IMG/VR virus record: IMGVR_UViG_3300045776_000124
Location: 1-35,644 of that record
Strand: one strand, 5' to 3'
Source of the DNA: a virus
Length of the DNA: 35,644 bases
The notes under the pieces were generated by a model, which made no database searches, had not been told where the DNA came from, and was given only the letters and a program-made list of their open reading frames with translations. Below are positions 2,730 to 11,077 of this stretch, piece after piece; position 1 is the first letter of the stretch; each line of letters starts with the position of its first letter. The translations under genes and the position numbers were made by a program.

Positions 2730-3239
2730 ATGTTGACGGCAGATCGTTTGCGCGAAGTTCTGCGCTATGACCCGGAAACGGGCGCTTTTACGTGGCTGGT
2801 GAAGACATCGAGAAAGGTCCGTATCGGCAGCGAGGCGGGAAGCGCGCGTCCAAGCACGCACCGAACGCCAGGCAAGAGGCGCATCAAGATCGATGGCCTT
2901 ACCTATCAAGCCAACGTCCTGGCTTTTCTCTACATGACCGGCCGAATGCCCGAGGGTGATGTCGATCATCGCGACAACGACCCCGGCAACGACAGATGGC
3001 TCAATCTGCGTGAAGGCACGCGCAGTCAGAACATCGCTAATCGACACAAGACGCCGGGCAAGAGCGGCTTTACCGGCGTGCGGCACGTCGCGCGCAATCT
3101 GAGCAAGCCCTGGCGCGCGGTCATTCGCGTACAGAACAAGCTGCGCTGCCTGGGGTATCATGCGACCCCCGAGCAGGCGCACGCCGCGTGGCGAGAGGCG
3201 GCGATCAGTGCGTTTGGCGAGTTTGCCAAGGTCGATTAG
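2730..3239 (+). CDS. HNH endonuclease with AP2 DNA-binding domain
   Basis: This 169-residue protein has the usual layout of phage HNH_3/AP2 homing endonucleases. The N-terminus LREVLRYDPETGAFTW is the common entry motif. A beta-rich segment with the YQANVLAFLYMTGRMPEGDV signature follows, then the HNH core DHRDNDPGNDRWLNLR (residues 79-94) and QNIANR. An AP2-like domain at about 112-155 (SGFTGVRHV to AHAAW) should bind the target site. It is inserted on the plus strand between the scaffold-like and decoration genes and transcribed against them. ATG 2730 is preceded by GGACACCAC, which resembles the ribosome site of the early genes. Confidence 0.9.
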   Translation: MLTADRLREVLRYDPETGAFTWLVKTSRKVRIGSEAGSARPSTHRTPGKRRIKIDGLTYQANVLAFLYMTGRMPEGDVDHRDNDPGNDRWLNLREGTRSQNIANRHKTPGKSGFTGVRHVARNLSKPWRAVIRVQNKLRCLGYHATPEQAHAAWREAAISAFGEFAKVD

Positions 3240-4606: not shown

Positions 4607-5211
4607 CAGACCGGCACCCGGCGCGCGCGTCCGCCGATCGAGAACGCCTTGAGCGCGCCGGACTTGACCAGGGCGCGCACGTCCGCATCATCGACGCGAT
4701 AGCCGATGAACCAGCCGGTCCGTCCGAGATCGATGCCGAGGGCCTTCTGCACGTCAGGGGTCATCACCACGGATTCAACGATGTCGCCGCCACGATAGGG
4801 CGATCCATCGTCTTGCCGGGCGTGCAATACCCCACCGGTTCTTGATGATGTAATGAAATCGTGTGCCGCCTTAACGATTTCCGCGTCAACCACCTGATCG
4901 TCCTGATGATCGGTGACGATCTCGCCGCCCTCGCTGTTGACGCTGGCCCAGCCGTAGACGGTGCTGAGTTCGTCGTTATACTTCAATATCGGCACAGTAA
5001 TCGAGAACGCACAGGTTTCTTCGGCGTCATCGTTCTTCAGCATCGCCAGCGGCGGATCGCCGGGGTTGAACTTGCGCCGCAGGCGGCGGCGGCCGTCGCG
5101 CTGACGCGAGGCGTTGCCGAGCGCGGTCGGCACGTGGACATCGCCCACCGCCGGCATCTGGTCTTTGATAACCTGAAAGAATGTCAGCATCATTTGTCCT
5201 TCATTCGCCAT
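4606..5211 (-). CDS. XkdF-like prohead serine protease
   Basis: This 201-residue protein is a predicted head maturation protease. The conserved part begins at about residue 75 with ITVPILKYNDELSTVYGWAS, continues through EIVTDHQDDQVVDAEIVKAA and ends in DVRALVKSGALKAFSIGG, which matches the phage XkdF serine protease family. ATG 5211-5209 overlaps the end of the MuF gene by 11 bases; ATG codons at 5193 and 5190 are alternative starts. It lies between the MuF and scaffold-like genes, the standard place for a prohead protease that cleaves scaffold and capsid arms during assembly. Confidence 0.85.
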   Translation of the reverse strand: MANEGQMMLTFFQVIKDQMPAVGDVHVPTALGNASRQRDGRRRLRRKFNPGDPPLAMLKNDDAEETCAFSITVPILKYNDELSTVYGWASVNSEGGEIVTDHQDDQVVDAEIVKAAHDFITSSRTGGVLHARQDDGSPYRGGDIVESVVMTPDVQKALGIDLGRTGWFIGYRVDDADVRALVKSGALKAFSIGGRARRVPV

Positions 5212-7063
5212 AGTCGGTTTGGATGCGAGTTCCAACACCGGATGCGCCGGGACCCGAGGAAACGATGCGCGCGTAGCGTTCGGTGCAGCGGCAGTTGTGT
5301 ACATAAATGCCCCGTGCCAGATAATATTCCGACAGGGTTTCGAGATTGAAGACATGCCCCGCAAATGGACGCCTGACAACGCTGACGACTTGATCAAACG
5401 CTATCGCGCCGGCACTTCCGTCTTGCAGCTTGCGCGCGAGGTCAAGATCAGCCGCCCGTGCTTGACGCGCTTTCTCGTCGCGCACGGCGTCGTCTTGCGC
5501 AGCGCAAGCGAGCAAGAGCAATTGAAGTGGCAGACTATGACGCCCGAGCAGCGCGCCGCCCGGGTCGATGCCGCGCATGAAGCTGTGCGCGGGATGAAGC
5601 GCTCGATCGATGATTTGACTAAGCGCGCGGCCACACGCGCAGCGCGCGGGCATGGCGTATCGACGCTCGAATGCCGGCTGCATGATCTGCTGGCTGAGCG
5701 TGGCATCGAGACGATCCCGCAGATGGCGATCGGTCGCTATAACTGCGATCTCGCTGCCTTGCCCATCGCCGTGGAAGTCTTCGGCGGTGAGTGGCACTTC
5801 TCGGGACGTCATCTGGCCCGCACGCCGCAGCGCATCAGAGACTTCGCCGATGCGGGCTGGCATAGCCTGATGGTCGTGCATCGGGGATGGGCGCAGATCG
5901 GACCCGGCGTCGCAGACGAGATAGTCGCCCTGCACAAGCAGGCGCGGCGCAACCCATCCGCGCGTCGTCAGTACTGGGTGATTCAAGGTGACGGGAAGCT
6001 GCTTGCCAGAGGATGTGCTGACGATCGCGATCTCACCCTGAAACTGCCGCGCCGTATGCCCCGCGATGGGCGCGCGCGCTTCGATCAGGACGTCACCCGG
6101 TAGGCAGTTCGGATGCGGATCGGGCGGCATCATCAGCGGACCGATCGGCGTCTCATAGGCTTGATCCAGATCAACGCCGTCCGGGTTCATCCCCGGGATC
6201 GGCGCGCACACCGCGCAGACCAGTTCGTCGCCCGCGGTGAGCCAGAAGCGCCTGACGCCGCGCCCGGTCGCCTCGGCATACTGCAGCCAGGCCGCCCGGC
6301 GGCCCTGATTCGCCGCCCGCAGGCTCTCGGTGCGCGCCAGGCGCAGCGCGCGATAGGAGCGATAGCGCGCGGCATAGCGATCGGTCATCGCGTCGATCTG
6401 GTCAGGCGTCATGTCGCCGCGCAGCACGCGCGCATCATAGCGCCTATCGCGCAGCGCGCGGCTCAGCGCCGACGCGGTGCCGGACTGGAGCGCGCGGCGG
6501 TAGCTCTCGATCGCCGCCGCCTCCTGCTGCGTCATGCCGAGCGTCTCGCGCAGCGTCCGCGCGATCTTTTCGGGAGAGACATGGCCGGCCAGCCCGTCGC
6601 TGAGAATCTGCTGCGCGGTGCGCATCGCCTGTTGTTCGACCGTGGCGGCGAGTTCGTCGTTGGTGGCGTTCTGCGCCGCCACGGTGGCCGTATTCAGCGG
6701 ATCGTAGGTGAGGTTGATCACCGCCGGGGTCTTGAAGTTCTTCGGCGCCGCCTTGCCGACGATCGCCCAGGCCGGCACCGACAGGCTGGCGGAGATCGCC
6801 GCCTGATCGTGAATGGCGGCGAGGCGGTTGAGCGCGGGCCGCAGCGCGGGCCGGATGCGTTCGATCGCCAGATGCCGCCATATCTCGGTAAAGCGGTTCT
6901 CGCGGATCAGCCGCGCCAGCCCGGTCTGATCGAAAGTCTGACCGAGCGCGACCAGCGCCTCTCTGATCGCGCGCGCGACGCCGCCCTCGCCGTGCTCGGC
7001 GAACATGCGCGCGGCATCGTCGGCGGGCTGGATCTGATGCGCCAGCAGGACCGGGCTGATCAT
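5201..7063 (-). CDS. MuF-like head morphogenesis protein interrupted by an intein
   Basis: This is a 620-residue precursor. Residues 1-319 are a helical phage minor head protein with the MuF pattern: ALRLARTESLRAANQGRR, then GDELVCAVCAPIPG and DPHPN. The conserved HPNCRC motif is split: HPN precedes the intein Cys at residue 320, and CRCTERYARI resumes at 591 after the intein's HN. The spliced product would be about 349 residues. ATG 7063-7061 overlaps the portal TGA as ATGA. MuF proteins sit at the portal and are injected or act in head assembly. The intein interior is overlapped on the other strand by a homing endonuclease gene. Confidence 0.9.
   Translation of the reverse strand: MISPVLLAHQIQPADDAARMFAEHGEGGVARAIREALVALGQTFDQTGLARLIRENRFTEIWRHLAIERIRPALRPALNRLAAIHDQAAISASLSVPAWAIVGKAAPKNFKTPAVINLTYDPLNTATVAAQNATNDELAATVEQQAMRTAQQILSDGLAGHVSPEKIARTLRETLGMTQQEAAAIESYRRALQSGTASALSRALRDRRYDARVLRGDMTPDQIDAMTDRYAARYRSYRALRLARTESLRAANQGRRAAWLQYAEATGRGVRRFWLTAGDELVCAVCAPIPGMNPDGVDLDQAYETPIGPLMMPPDPHPNCLPGDVLIEARAPIAGHTARQFQGEIAIVSTSSGKQLPVTLNHPVLTTRGWVAPRLLVQGDYLVCDAGSDLRPSPMHDHQAMPARIGEVSDALRRAGQMTSREVPLTAEDFHGDGQGSEIAVIATDRHLRDRLDATLSQQIMQPAFERRYAMPARCACGRALSQIIDRALHPAHSFMRGIDPGGALLGRHSLPLQLLLLACAAQDDAVRDEKARQARAADLDLARKLQDGSAGAIAFDQVVSVVRRPFAGHVFNLETLSEYYLARGIYVHNCRCTERYARIVSSGPGASGVGTRIQTDYGE
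5294..6106 (-). mobile_element. Intein in the MuF-like protein (271 residues)
   Basis: The splicing domain starts with CLPGDVLIEA (Cys1 at 6106-6104), has a B-like block LNHPVLTTRGWV, and ends VFNLETLSEYYLARGIYVHN (Asn at 5296-5294), followed by Cys+1. These are canonical Hint blocks A, B, F and G with penultimate His and terminal Asn. The centre (motif AEDFHGDGQGS and following) has no LAGLIDADG or HNH domain in this frame. Instead, the plus strand of the same DNA encodes a Vsr-like nuclease ending (TAG 6101-6103) right at the intein's first codons. Splicing activity is predicted from intact motifs. Confidence 0.9.
5354..6103 (+). CDS. Vsr-like homing endonuclease antisense to the MuF intein
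   Basis: This 249-residue protein is encoded wholly inside the intein DNA but on the opposite strand. Residues 1-55 form an HTH region (LIKRYRAGTSVLQLAREV). Residues 103-175 resemble the Vsr/DUF559 nuclease fold used by some homing endonucleases: ECRLHDLL (E106), CDLA (D132), VEVFGGEWHFSGRH (E141, H148, H153) and RIRDFADAGWHSLMVVH. The C-terminus YWVIQGDGKLL matches the tail of the same endonuclease group. ATG 5354 was chosen because conserved sequence begins there; an earlier ATG at 5219 would extend outside the intein. It probably promotes spread of the intein to inteinless MuF genes. Confidence 0.85.
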   Translation: MPRKWTPDNADDLIKRYRAGTSVLQLAREVKISRPCLTRFLVAHGVVLRSASEQEQLKWQTMTPEQRAARVDAAHEAVRGMKRSIDDLTKRAATRAARGHGVSTLECRLHDLLAERGIETIPQMAIGRYNCDLAALPIAVEVFGGEWHFSGRHLARTPQRIRDFADAGWHSLMVVHRGWAQIGPGVADEIVALHKQARRNPSARRQYWVIQGDGKLLARGCADDRDLTLKLPRRMPRDGRARFDQDVTR

Positions 7064-9690
7064 AGAGAGGCTTGCGCCAGATGGCGGCGGCGCATCCGCT
7101 CGGCGGCGGCGGTCAGCATCGCGTTGATCTTCTGCACGGTGGCCTGCGGCACCGGCTTGGCGACGGCGCCGGTGGCCTGCGCTTCGGCGGTCGGCGTCGT
7201 GACGGCGGCGGGCTTGGGCCATGCGCGGCCGGGCGCGGCGCCGCTGTTGAGATCGCTGTCCTTCTGATCCTCGGGCGAGGTGTCGGCATTGAGCGCATAG
7301 GCGGTCTCGCCGAGGTCCGGCATGCCGGCGGCGTTGCGCAGATAGTTCTCCAGGTCGGGATCGGGGAACATCTGCATGCCCGACTGCGCCAGCTTGACCA
7401 CGAAGTCGCCGATGGCGGCGATGTCGATGCGCTGCGCGAGGTCCGGTTCGAACTCCGGCATCAGCGACGGATCGAGCGCGTTCAACTCCCACACCCGCGG
7501 CAGCAGGTAGCGGTTAACCACGGCGGCGAGCGAATTGATCCAGCCTTCGACCGCCTGGAAGAACATGTCGATCTTGCTCTCCGCCAGCGATTGCGTGCCG
7601 TGGCTGGCGTGACCGAGGGCGATGAAGTCGGCGAGCACGGTCATCAGCATGTCGAGACGGTGGCGGCTGATGATCTTGTCGGAATCGGGCGGCGTGCGGC
7701 CCTGCGGCACGACCAACTGAAATTCATACATCCGCGTGGCGCCCTGCGCGCCCATCGCGTTCGGCCAGGTGTTGGACGGCAGCAGCAGGCCCATCTGCTC
7801 GCCGATCTTGGTGTTGGTGATCATCTTCTTGTAGGCGTTGACCTGGGCGGCGGCGTTGGCATCGCCGGCTGCAGCCGCGTCCATCAGCTCCTGCGGCACC
7901 CACATCACCGGCACGCCGGACATGCGCTCGTAGAAGATGGCTTCCTCTTCCTCGAACCGCTTGAGGAAGTACCAGCTTCGGTAGCAGTTGCGCAGCAGCG
8001 AGCGGCCTTCCGGATTGCCCTTGTGGCTGGACGGGCGGAACAGCAGCATCTTCTCGATCGGAATGTTGTTGATGGTCCCGGTGTAGGGCTGCTGCGTCAT
8101 GCCGAGCACTTCGCCGTTTGGACCGAAGAACCAGTGGATCACCGTGTCCTGACCGCGGATCGGCAGCTTGCGGATGCCGATCCGGCCGTCGTCGAACTGG
8201 CTGGACGCGAGCGCGTCGTCGCCGTCGGCGCTGCGCTCGGGCTGACGGCCGAGGCGGCGCTTGTAGACGATCTCGTGCGGCGCATAGCCATAGGTCAGCA
8301 TCGACAGCGCCTCGCCGATGAAGTCCTCCCAGGTGTGGCTGTTGCCGCACCACATCGCCTTGCCGCCCCGGCGCACCATGACGACGCCGGAGGGTACGGA
8401 CACGCAATGCACCTTGCCGGTATAGTCCTGCTCGTACCAGCCGCGTCCGGTCTTGAGATAGGGCTGTTGATGTTCCGGCCGCGACCAGAGCGACACGCGA
8501 TAGCTTGGCGAGCCGGGCGAAAAGCTGTCGGGCGATCCCGTCCGGTTGAGCAGCGTCGCGACATAGCCCGCCCTCATGGCGATCTCTTGCAGATCGTCGG
8601 CGAGTTGCCTGGATGACGTGTAGAGCGCGATTAGTCCGGTATCCGCCTCCCATCCGTCGCCCTCGGTAAAGCCGGTCAGGAACGCGCGGATTTCATCCGG
8701 CGTCGCGTTCTTGAGCCAGAACGGCAGGCGCTTGAAGCGTGACGTGCCACCAAAATCCGCCGCCATCTTGCGCGCGATCGCCGTGTCGCAGAGCGCCCAT
8801 TGCGTTGATCCGTTGACCGGCCGGTCGCCCATCTTGTGGGTCAGGCCGCAGCGCTCGATCAGGTCGGCGACATACTCGGTTTCCTTCTGGATCAGCACAA
8901 CCTGATTGGACTGCACGCAGCCGTCGGCCAGCGCGAAGCCCAGGAACTCCAGCCAGTTCGCGTCCAGGCCGCAGCTTTCGCCGCTCCAGGTGACGCGCTT
9001 GGAGAGCCAGCCGGACTTGTTGTAGATCGCCTCGCATTTGTGAATGCCGAGGTTCGCCTTCCGGCTGCTGTCGTGCTTGCGACCGATGCGCGGCGCGAAC
9101 AGCATCCGATGGCTCGGGGTGACAAGGAAATCGACCGCGTCGCCCTTGTTGCCCATCAGCTTGCCGTCAAAGTCATAGACGTGGCGCTTGCTCGGACGGA
9201 CGAACTCTATCCTGTCATTGTCGCCGCGCTGCGCCACGCGATCGTCATCGGTCAGGTTCTCAAACAGTATCCAGCCGCGCTCGGTGAGGATTTCCGTCTC
9301 GCGGTCGTAGCACATGTCGAAGCGCAGCGTGTCGGCGAACTGCGCCTCGGCCAGCGCCTCGGGCGTATCGTTCGCGGCTTTGACGCGCCATTCGATCTTG
9401 CGCATGGTCTGGATGATCGCGAACAACATCGCGCCGATGGTGGCGTTGTTGTCCTGCATCTCGCGGTAGACCCGCGCCGCCTGACGGCCCTGCAATTGCG
9501 GCAGGAACTCCTCGCGCACCCAGCCGGAGTACTGCCGCAGGCCGGTCTGACCGTATTCGCGGAACGTCATCCCGGCGTCGAACACCGGCGCGCCGTAGGT
9601 CGCGACGCCCCATTGCGCGTTGCGCGCGGAGGCCGGATCGGACGGGTTCGGCACCGGCAGGTTGACGGGCTTGGGCGGCGACGGCGACAT
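7060..9690 (-). CDS. Portal protein interrupted by a LAGLIDADG intein
   Basis: This is an 876-residue precursor. The extein (residues 1-126 and 451-876, about 552 residues) is a DUF935-like portal: MTFREYGQTGLRQYSGWVRE, then DTLRFDM/SHTWEDFIGEAL at the intein junction, LPIRGQDTVIHWFFGPNG, KMLLFRPSSHKGNPEGRS and a long C-terminal stem region. Portals form the dodecameric ring through which DNA is packaged. The start ATG 9690-9688 has GGAG about 8 bases upstream and lies five bases past the terminase stop. Its TGA overlaps the MuF ATG. Confidence 0.93.
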   Translation of the reverse strand: MSPSPPKPVNLPVPNPSDPASARNAQWGVATYGAPVFDAGMTFREYGQTGLRQYSGWVREEFLPQLQGRQAARVYREMQDNNATIGAMLFAIIQTMRKIEWRVKAANDTPEALAEAQFADTLRFDMCYDRETEILTERGWILFENLTDDDRVAQRGDNDRIEFVRPSKRHVYDFDGKLMGNKGDAVDFLVTPSHRMLFAPRIGRKHDSSRKANLGIHKCEAIYNKSGWLSKRVTWSGESCGLDANWLEFLGFALADGCVQSNQVVLIQKETEYVADLIERCGLTHKMGDRPVNGSTQWALCDTAIARKMAADFGGTSRFKRLPFWLKNATPDEIRAFLTGFTEGDGWEADTGLIALYTSSRQLADDLQEIAMRAGYVATLLNRTGSPDSFSPGSPSYRVSLWSRPEHQQPYLKTGRGWYEQDYTGKVHCVSVPSGVVMVRRGGKAMWCGNSHTWEDFIGEALSMLTYGYAPHEIVYKRRLGRQPERSADGDDALASSQFDDGRIGIRKLPIRGQDTVIHWFFGPNGEVLGMTQQPYTGTINNIPIEKMLLFRPSSHKGNPEGRSLLRNCYRSWYFLKRFEEEEAIFYERMSGVPVMWVPQELMDAAAAGDANAAAQVNAYKKMITNTKIGEQMGLLLPSNTWPNAMGAQGATRMYEFQLVVPQGRTPPDSDKIISRHRLDMLMTVLADFIALGHASHGTQSLAESKIDMFFQAVEGWINSLAAVVNRYLLPRVWELNALDPSLMPEFEPDLAQRIDIAAIGDFVVKLAQSGMQMFPDPDLENYLRNAAGMPDLGETAYALNADTSPEDQKDSDLNSGAAPGRAWPKPAAVTTPTAEAQATGAVAKPVPQATVQKINAMLTAAAERMRRRHLAQASL
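8341..9312 (-). mobile_element. Intein in the portal with LAGLIDADG endonuclease (324 residues)
   Basis: The intein starts with CYDRETEILTERGW (Cys1 at 9312-9310) and has block B LVTPSHRMLF. It carries two dodecapeptide motifs of a LAGLIDADG (DOD) homing endonuclease: LEFLGFALADG and AFLTGFTEGDG. It ends VHCVSVPSGVVMVRR followed by GKAMWCGN, with terminal Asn at 8343-8341 and Ser at +1. The penultimate residue is Gly instead of His, as seen in some phage inteins. All splicing and nuclease motifs look intact, so it should be an active, mobile intein. Confidence 0.93.
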
Positions 9691-9694
9691 GTGG

Positions 9695-11077
9695 CTACTC
9701 CAGAACTGACCAGCCCTCTTGCTCGCGGCTGGCGATGCCGACGAAGCCGGTGCCGATGGTGACGAAATACGCGGTGAGGCTCTTGAACGCGGTCGCGGTG
9801 GCGTCGGGGCAGTCGTCGTGCCGCGCTTCGGGGAAGGCTTCGTTCTCGGACAGGAACCGCTCATTCCAGCCGCCGCGCACGATCGAGACGTTGCCCGCCT
9901 CGGCCTGCGCGGAAAACGGGCTGTAGCGGGTGATCTTGTCGCCGTTGTTGGTGGCGTAGCGCACCACGTAGCCGGCGAGGTCGGCGACGATCGACGCGAT
10001 CTGATCCTTGCCCGCCGAGCCGGGGTCCTGCGGCAGATGGATATGCACGCTGTCGGTGTCTTCCGAGGCGACGTTGCCGATGAAGCGCCGCACCTCGCCC
10101 GGATTGCCGCGCAGCCAGCGCGCGTCGAGCACGTAGTAGTGCCCGACCGGGGTGCGCCCCATCTTGACGCAGCACGACCAGTCGGGATCGTTCGATCCGG
10201 TATAGGCGGTGGCGGCCAGATCCCAGCCGCGCTTGACCGTCATCAGCGCGGGCGCGGCATCGACGACGGTGCACCACTCGCGGCGGAAGTAGAGGCCGGC
10301 CGCGGGCCTGATCTTCCAGTTGCCGCCGAGCAGGCGCTCGCGTTCGACCAGTTGCAGCGCCATCAGGTTCGCCCGGTAGCCGGGATCGGACTGTTCCAGG
10401 GTCGGATTGTCGGACAGCCGCGAGCCGATGAAGGTCAGGCTTTTCGGGATCGATCCCGGGATGCGCGCCTGCATCTCGGCAAAGCTGTCGCCCCATTCGA
10501 GGCGGTCTTCGACGCGCACGAACCAGCGGATCACGCCCGACCGCTCGGGGATCGGCAGGCCGGTGTTTTGGTCGATCCACCACGCAATCAGTTCGGCGAC
10601 CCACGAATCGGCGTCCGGATTGCACGAGGCGCGCACATAGCCGCGCACCCCCGACATCGAGCGGTTGCGGCTCAGGAGATACCAGAACTGCGTCGAGGTG
10701 AACGTCGTCAGCTCATCGAACAGGATCAGCGGCAGTTCCGCGCCGTGCCAGTCGAGCTTGGTGCTCTCGTGCTCCAGATGGGCGAACTTCACCTTGCCGC
10801 CGTCGCGCCAGCGCCATTCCAGCGTGTAGGACGGAATGCCGCCCAACAGCGGATAGAGCTTCATGCTCTGATCCCACAGCCCGCCGGGGTTCTTGATCTG
10901 CGTCGTGGTGCGCCGGAAATAGACCGCGGCGAAGCGCGGATTGTGCATCACATGGCGCAAGGCTTCGAGCAGCAGCGCGTGCGATTTCCCCCCGCCGGCC
11001 GCGCCGCCGAACAGGGTGATGTCGGCCTCGGAGGCGAGAAACCGTTCCTGCGGCCCCGCATGAGGGCGGATGTCCAT
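9695..11077 (-). CDS. terL: Terminase large subunit
   Basis: This 460-residue protein is the ATPase and nuclease motor that packages DNA into the prohead. Residues 24-32 are a Walker A motif (GGAAGGGKS), residues 117-122 a Walker B (LILFDE), and the region after about residue 260 has the RNase H-like nuclease pattern: GWDLAATAYTGS, QDPGSAGK and the acidic pair in HDDCPDATATAFKSL. Length and order are normal for a Terminase_6-type large subunit. The small-subunit gene ends 3 bases before its ATG at 11077, and the portal follows after 4 bases. Confidence 0.96.
   Translation of the reverse strand: MDIRPHAGPQERFLASEADITLFGGAAGGGKSHALLLEALRHVMHNPRFAAVYFRRTTTQIKNPGGLWDQSMKLYPLLGGIPSYTLEWRWRDGGKVKFAHLEHESTKLDWHGAELPLILFDELTTFTSTQFWYLLSRNRSMSGVRGYVRASCNPDADSWVAELIAWWIDQNTGLPIPERSGVIRWFVRVEDRLEWGDSFAEMQARIPGSIPKSLTFIGSRLSDNPTLEQSDPGYRANLMALQLVERERLLGGNWKIRPAAGLYFRREWCTVVDAAPALMTVKRGWDLAATAYTGSNDPDWSCCVKMGRTPVGHYYVLDARWLRGNPGEVRRFIGNVASEDTDSVHIHLPQDPGSAGKDQIASIVADLAGYVVRYATNNGDKITRYSPFSAQAEAGNVSIVRGGWNERFLSENEAFPEARHDDCPDATATAFKSLTAYFVTIGTGFVGIASREQEGWSVLE

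Follow-up and report, generated by a model that had tools for sequence, protein, structure and literature searches.

Can one short stretch of phage DNA serve two full-length proteins, with one strand coding for an intein and its complement for the endonuclease that would spread it? The question is raised by a MuF gene in the viral record IMGVR_UViG_3300045776_000124, of which the whole stretch of 35,644 nucleotides was analysed (hereafter the window). A first-pass annotation, made from the letters alone, had placed an intein with intact ends at the HPNCRC motif of MuF and a 249-residue nuclease antisense within it. Translation agrees with both, at the positions given in Table 1. Very probably, we think, the element is a mobile intein whose homing endonuclease, of the Vsr/EDxHD-like type, is encoded by a separate gene on the opposite strand.

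Table 1. Features of the MuF locus and of related loci. Positions are those of the window, unless preceded by the name of a locus; a slash within a motif marks the extein-intein junction.
Feature	Position	Strand	Basis
MuF-type minor head / head morphogenesis protein gene (N-extein, intein, C-extein)	5201-7063	-	translation, PHROG, Pfam
Intein, 271 aa, at HPN/CRC of MuF (...PDPHPN/CRCTERY...)	5294-6106	-	translation, PF14890, fold model
Intein Cys1, splicing nucleophile, first intein codon	6104-6106	-	translation; invariant in family alignment
Intein C-terminal His-Asn, followed by +1 Cys at 5291-5293	5294-5299	-	translation; N271 invariant
Intein EDFHGDG motif, antisense of the nuclease's conserved IAVEVF stretch	5762-5782	-	sequence
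Nuclease gene, 249 aa and stop, wholly within the intein coding sequence	5354-6103	+	translation; 184/184 loci; AF2 pLDDT 92
Helix-turn-helix DNA-binding region, N-terminal in nuclease	5378-5500	+	HTH_7/HTH_58; helices in model
Vsr/EDxHD-like nuclease domain, residues 100-221	5651-6016	+	profile, conserved residues, fold match
Nuclease ATG start, antisense of intein block-F His251 (GHVFNL)	5354-5356	+	sequence, family comparison
Shine-Dalgarno-like GAGA, antisense of block-F Asn-Leu	5342-5345	+	sequence; weaker than family form
Nuclease TAG stop, antisense of intein Leu2, rare codon CTA	6101-6103	+	family codon counts
Promoter-like TGTACA-16-GATAAT upstream of nuclease start, in intein C-end	5298-5325	+	consensus match
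Antisense ORF between portal and MuF in Jerseyviruses	L252:440-1093, L021:1348-2001, L260:704-1357	-	
Free-standing nuclease homologues beside intein-free MuF	L106:2821-3687; L207:2501-3394	tail to tail	

The host protein matches PHROG 3517, head morphogenesis (E 8e-38), and, under the Pfam cut-off, Phage_Mu_F (E 0.004). Its insert is read on the minus strand as a stop-free product with Cys1, TLNHPVL, GHVFNLET and HN, then Cys at +1. These are the residues of a class 1 Hint intein: a nucleophilic residue 1, TxxH in block B, a C-terminal HN and C, S or T at +1. Cys1, the TxNHP of block B, block F and the HN/C end are invariant or nearly so among 72 aligned inteins. All 72 match PF14890 (E 0.01); the window intein does so with an E of 1e-5 and is itself under the Pfam cut-off. 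The structural model is a Hint domain, with pLDDT mostly 87-98 at the ends and 40-68 in the middle, and it compares with the Mtu RecA intein at Z 12.8 (107 residues, 1.7 A). A Pfam search of the 72 intein products found no LAGLIDADG, HNH or other endonuclease domain; the nuclease is coded by the opposite strand and stays outside the spliced polypeptide.

The nuclease, modelled from an alignment of 72 sequences (AF2, pLDDT 92), consists of an N-terminal helix-turn-helix and a nuclease domain. Its best structural match is Vsr (1cw0, Z 12.0, 113 aligned residues, 2.3 A), ahead of I-Bth0305I (3r3p, Z 10.4, 93 aligned, 2.4 A) and the endonuclease-like protein 3hrl (Z 9.9). The family profile finds the latter two by sequence as well, 3hrl with an E of 1e-4 and I-Bth0305I with 3e-3. 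Profiles were needed: as single queries against PDB (phmmer), the window proteins gave no match. Likewise, Pfam MTES_1575 is matched by 50 of the 72 members (E 0.01), while the window nuclease alone stays under the Pfam cut-offs for MTES_1575 (E 2e-4) and HTH_7 (E 7e-5). The name "Vsr/DUF559-like" given in the first-pass annotation thus holds by profile and by predicted fold, not by Pfam for the single protein. Residues D132 and E141 are invariant in the alignment, E106 and H148 nearly so; E106 aligns with the E of I-Bth0305I, and the four are candidates for the acidic and histidine residues of an EDxHD active site. The stretch facing EDFHGDG has the family form (P)(V/I)AVEV(F/L), and the conserved EDFHGDG of the intein is an imprint of the putative nuclease active site.

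The two frames lie exactly back to back: position 1 of the intein codon is opposite position 3 of the nuclease codon, and the middle bases are shared. The register is identical in all 184 related loci with one complete pair, reduced to 118 non-redundant ones at 95% for the counts below. The GC content of the loci goes from about 0.35 to 0.72, and the null models use the codon usage of each gene itself. A tblastn search of annotated phages gave 99 records with the intein and 127 with the nuclease. The two sets largely coincide, and many of the hits carry the label of a head morphogenesis or minor capsid protein. An alignment search of IMG/VR gave 355 relatives of the nuclease and at least 496 of the intein; the best 80 per search were studied, and some of the search patterns included the EDFHGDG imprint. 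Bacterial genomes contribute 14 loci, among them Actinomycetota, Pseudomonadota and bins of Chloroflexi, Gemmatimonadales and Scytonema, and a plasmid search with the nuclease one record, there too in a minor head protein. The intein with its antisense nuclease is confirmed as a widespread and conserved arrangement, present in hundreds of phages. Among the best-scoring loci, each nuclease except that of L106 is antisense in an intein, and each intein has its antisense nuclease. A nuclease profile match was required for the 118-locus set, and no intein-found locus of the top set was without one. Vibrio PvVp04_M and Cronobacter ES2, considered as nuclease-free relatives of the intein, were rejected, both carrying the nuclease antisense. 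In GE_vB_M4 frameshifts break both frames; this record is unverified and was for that reason not counted as evidence of decay.

How would a gene enclosed in another one be expressed and terminated? An ATG or GTG lies opposite the block-F His region in 110 of the 118 loci. Block F is mostly GHV(Y/F)NL, and when its His is missing the start is supplied by a His two codons earlier (FHGxV). The block-F Leu is CTC or CTT in 94 of 112 cases, against 42 expected, which writes the GAG or AAG of a ribosome-binding site; the family form of this site is usually (C/G)GAGGTT, weak in the window. At the other end, the nuclease stop had been located at the first codons of the intein. The position is right, but the codon concerned is codon 2, not codon 1; where codon 2 is Leu, it is CTA or TTA in 64 of 71 cases (7.9±2.5 expected). 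The promoter-like element of the window matches the consensus at 9 of 12 positions. As sigma-70 scans of single loci are weak, only a family-wide synonymous-shuffle test is informative here: a -10 hexamer (at least 5/6) is found in the last intein codons of 90 of 117 loci, against 22-33 in shuffles preserving the intein, and an extended -10 in 40 loci, against a mean of 3.2 and a maximum of 7. The element lies mostly over intein codons -4/-5, in the Ile-Ile-Thr region. The evidence for promoter and ribosome-binding site is thus statistical. With an extended -10, the -35 region matters little; it would fall in the extein, so that the element may carry a portable promoter. The uncoupling of splicing and homing in expression, proposed in the first-pass annotation, gains support from the conserved antisense -10 and start codon.

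Several comparisons bear on mobility. In Jerseyvirus, intein-bearing phages occur among many intein-free ones, i.e. presence of the element is polymorphic. Salmonella phage FSL SP-101 has an uninterrupted MuF whose protein is 98.6% identical to the exteins of the intein-bearing L021; DNA identity is 96% upstream and only 83% and 77% in the 30 bases flanking the junction, a drop such as expected from co-conversion. Between L066 and L047 the nuclease (0.68) and the intein (0.61) are far more alike than the exteins (0.30); the pair L103/L026 has 0.75 for the extein and 0.62 for the intein. Divergence of intein and extein is thus not always discordant, and much of the inheritance may be vertical. 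Moreover, Acinetobacter phages IME285/P1068 and L106 have the nuclease as a separate, ordinary gene that faces an intein-free MuF tail to tail; the in-register antisense of this gene contains 12 and 5 stops, respectively. L106 was classed as free-standing, and not as a broken intein, since HPGCRC is continuous in its MuF. In the tree, these two free-standing forms do not cluster with each other among the intein-borne ones. Such relatives, with a stop-rich other strand, show the nuclease frame to be an independent gene.

Dual-strand inteins were also seen at no less than three conserved MuF motifs, HPN/C, DSRTTPQ/C and RTE/T. Each of these inteins (L007:1069-2862, L046:2941-5031, L015:3001-3918) has its own antisense nuclease, and the MuF genes of L007 and L046 contain two such inteins, at different conserved motifs. 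Jerseyviruses, with and without the intein, have in addition a further, uncharacterised antisense ORF located between the portal and MuF genes.

Could the plus-strand frame nevertheless be a chance by-product of a conserved intein, a high GC content and a favorable register? High GC does lower the stop frequency in some members, and part of the nuclease similarity is indeed an imprint, since sequences shuffled synonymously with the intein protein fixed still score 89-100 bits with the nuclease HMM. However, the observed score of 262 bits is beyond every shuffle. With the nuclease fixed, the intein score falls in the same way from 252 to 133-147 bits, and in none of 106 loci did any shuffle equal the observed score. 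As synonymous shuffling of either fixed protein ruins the score of the other, both strands carry independent information. Antisense stops were counted in a region set beforehand, from intein codon 18 to codon -22, against a null in which the intein protein was preserved and synonymous codons were sampled with the codon usage of the extein: the 118 loci contain 5 stops where 459.4±19.4 are expected, so the plus frame is not freely interrupted in relatives. Applied to the flanking N-exteins, this test gives 317 for 333.4±14.8, which indicates that the method is unbiased there, and loci found by the intein query only have 3 for 140±10. In a Helicobacter prophage with a GC of 0.35, the antisense frame remains open throughout the intein, whereas that of the N-extein is stop-rich. 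Finally, between close pairs, the variability at intein-frame codon positions 1/2/3 is.17/.11/.48 in the exteins and.08/.09/.25 in the intein C-end ahead of the nuclease start, but.33/.11/.19 in the intein middle, where position 1 is the nuclease wobble; the most variable position thus flips within the overlap. On these three independent controls—synonymous shuffles, codon-position variation and fixed-region stops—to which the homologues living without an intein and the confident Vsr fold are added, chance is rejected as an explanation and we consider it hardly conceivable.

The reverse would be a true nuclease gene facing a dead intein, i.e. a sense frame merely tolerated in MuF and not spliced. 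This agrees with the middle of the intein, which is poorly conserved, modelled with low confidence and evolving, over the 11-12 pairs available for selection estimates, at an omega of about 0.4-0.8, when that of the nuclease in the same part is 0.08-0.16. Most of the intein middle in fact passively mirrors the nuclease, its own strand being near neutral there save for staying open. But omega on the intein strand is 0.11-0.14 in the N-terminal splicing block, the splicing residues are (near-)invariant, PF14890 and the Hint fold are recovered, more than 100 bits are lost when the nuclease alone is preserved, and MuF, a head protein, is expected to need an uninterrupted sequence; a dead intein is thus very improbable. 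On each frame, purifying selection exceeds the constraint due to the other, though only weakly for the intein strand in the middle. The earlier claim of selection on both strands therefore stands, with the correction that it is uneven: the nuclease is constrained in the middle, the intein more strongly in its N-terminal splicing block. One may also imagine that the main task of an expressed nuclease is the exclusion of competing phages, whose MuF gene it would cut, or an effect of its antisense RNA on late MuF expression, rather than homing. A promoter of its own would indeed separate nuclease expression from that of MuF, and phage endonucleases can exclude co-infecting relatives (PMC7468147). 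Against this, the element occurs sporadically at one exact site, free-standing relatives lie next to intein-free MuF genes, and three different MuF sites are occupied by relatives, which are the usual signs of homing. We find such a main role unlikely, and exclusion can in any case coexist with homing.

For a mobile intein with an opposite-strand endonuclease, we propose the following functioning. On the minus strand, the DNA would be translated within MuF alongside the other head genes, and the Hint domain would splice itself out, leaving a functional head protein. From the plus strand, the helix-turn-helix and Vsr/EDxHD-type endonuclease would be produced with its own -10, ribosome-binding site, start and stop, all contained within the bounds of the intein. 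It most likely recognises the uninterrupted DNA coding the HPN/CRC motif of MuF; it would cut intein-free alleles in co-infecting phages, whose repair would copy in the whole 0.8-kb element. Through splicing, the insertion would go unnoticed by the phage, and its spread would be driven by the nuclease. Taken over the family, it is likely that these elements form a distinct, ancient and widespread class of dual-strand-coded inteins, segments of 0.8-1.1 kb in which one strand encodes a splicing protein and the opposite one carries a complete homing-endonuclease gene with its own promoter. In this class the block-F His would provide the start, block-F Asn-Leu the ribosome-binding site, the C-terminal Ile-Ile-Thr the extended -10 and Leu2 the stop, EDFHGDG being the active-site imprint.

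Mobile inteins of the PI-SceI type, with an in-frame LAGLIDADG or HNH endonuclease, resemble the present element by their Hint domain, which sits at a conserved motif within an essential gene, and usually spread by homing; the difference is that here the endonuclease is a separate protein of the opposite strand, outside the spliced polypeptide. For the EDxHD (Vsr-like) homing endonucleases, relatives were reportedly described by Dassa in 2009 as separate genes between the halves of split inteins, whereas here the gene is antisense within an unsplit one. The catalytic-domain fold, the profile and the extra DNA-binding helices bring the nuclease close to the EDxHD (Vsr-like) homing endonuclease I-Bth0305I, described among group I intron enzymes (PMC3943268, a review of EDxHD enzymes). 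The ShiLan domain is a hidden, out-of-frame HNH endonuclease in a phage methylase, for which neither a splicing domain nor a detectable ribosome-binding site was found (PMC11855218). It shares with our case an alternative-frame endonuclease in an in-frame insertion keeping the host gene open, but not the conserved intein, nor the opposite-strand, Vsr-like enzyme with ribosome-binding and promoter signals. Nuclear rDNA group I introns may also have a homing endonuclease gene opposite to the splicing element, inserted antisense in a peripheral loop of the ribozyme (PMC9548176); here, by contrast, each strand codes for a protein along almost the same 750 bases. Inteins of the MuF/capsid protein of Jerseyvirus and Kagunavirus have been reported, with the intein only and no mention of an antisense nuclease in the excerpts of these papers (PMC8425127, PMC11162368). 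They are of the same family and in the same host gene, and L020, L021 and L198 are members. We found no earlier description, in the open-access literature, of an intein and an endonuclease on opposite strands.

Clear cases of two full-length proteins on opposite strands, both folded and selected, are rare, and that of the MuF intein recurs in hundreds of phages. It comes with natural controls: empty sites, free-standing nuclease genes and free exteins. The origin and the upkeep of antisense overlapping genes become directly testable, since the mobility of the element would link the two. In-frame fusion, until now the rule for intein endonucleases, is to be revised accordingly, and the other strand of endonuclease-free "mini" or mid-size inteins is worth searching. 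There are also consequences for annotation, as many phage records lack the nuclease. In Salmonella phage PK2, the antisense frame over the whole intein (L258:2004-2813, minus strand) is annotated as a CDS for a hypothetical protein.

One relative departs from the family: in Rhodococcus phage REQ3 (L199), the MuF intein seemingly starts with Ala, not Cys, and the nuclease frame is without the helix-turn-helix region. It is possibly a decaying member or one of a different class.

The region of the window around MuF is rich in selfish elements. The adjoining portal gene (7060-9864, minus strand; Portal_Mu, E 4e-29) holds a second intein, this one of the ordinary type, with an in-frame LAGLIDADG_3 domain (E 4e-7), so that the two neighbouring inteins represent two different ways of carrying an endonuclease. 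Two free-standing ORFs of HNH type, at 2730-3239 and 1641-2297, are read on the plus strand between structural genes of the minus strand; their matches are to HNH_3 (E 3e-11) and, under the cut-off, to HNH (E 0.002).
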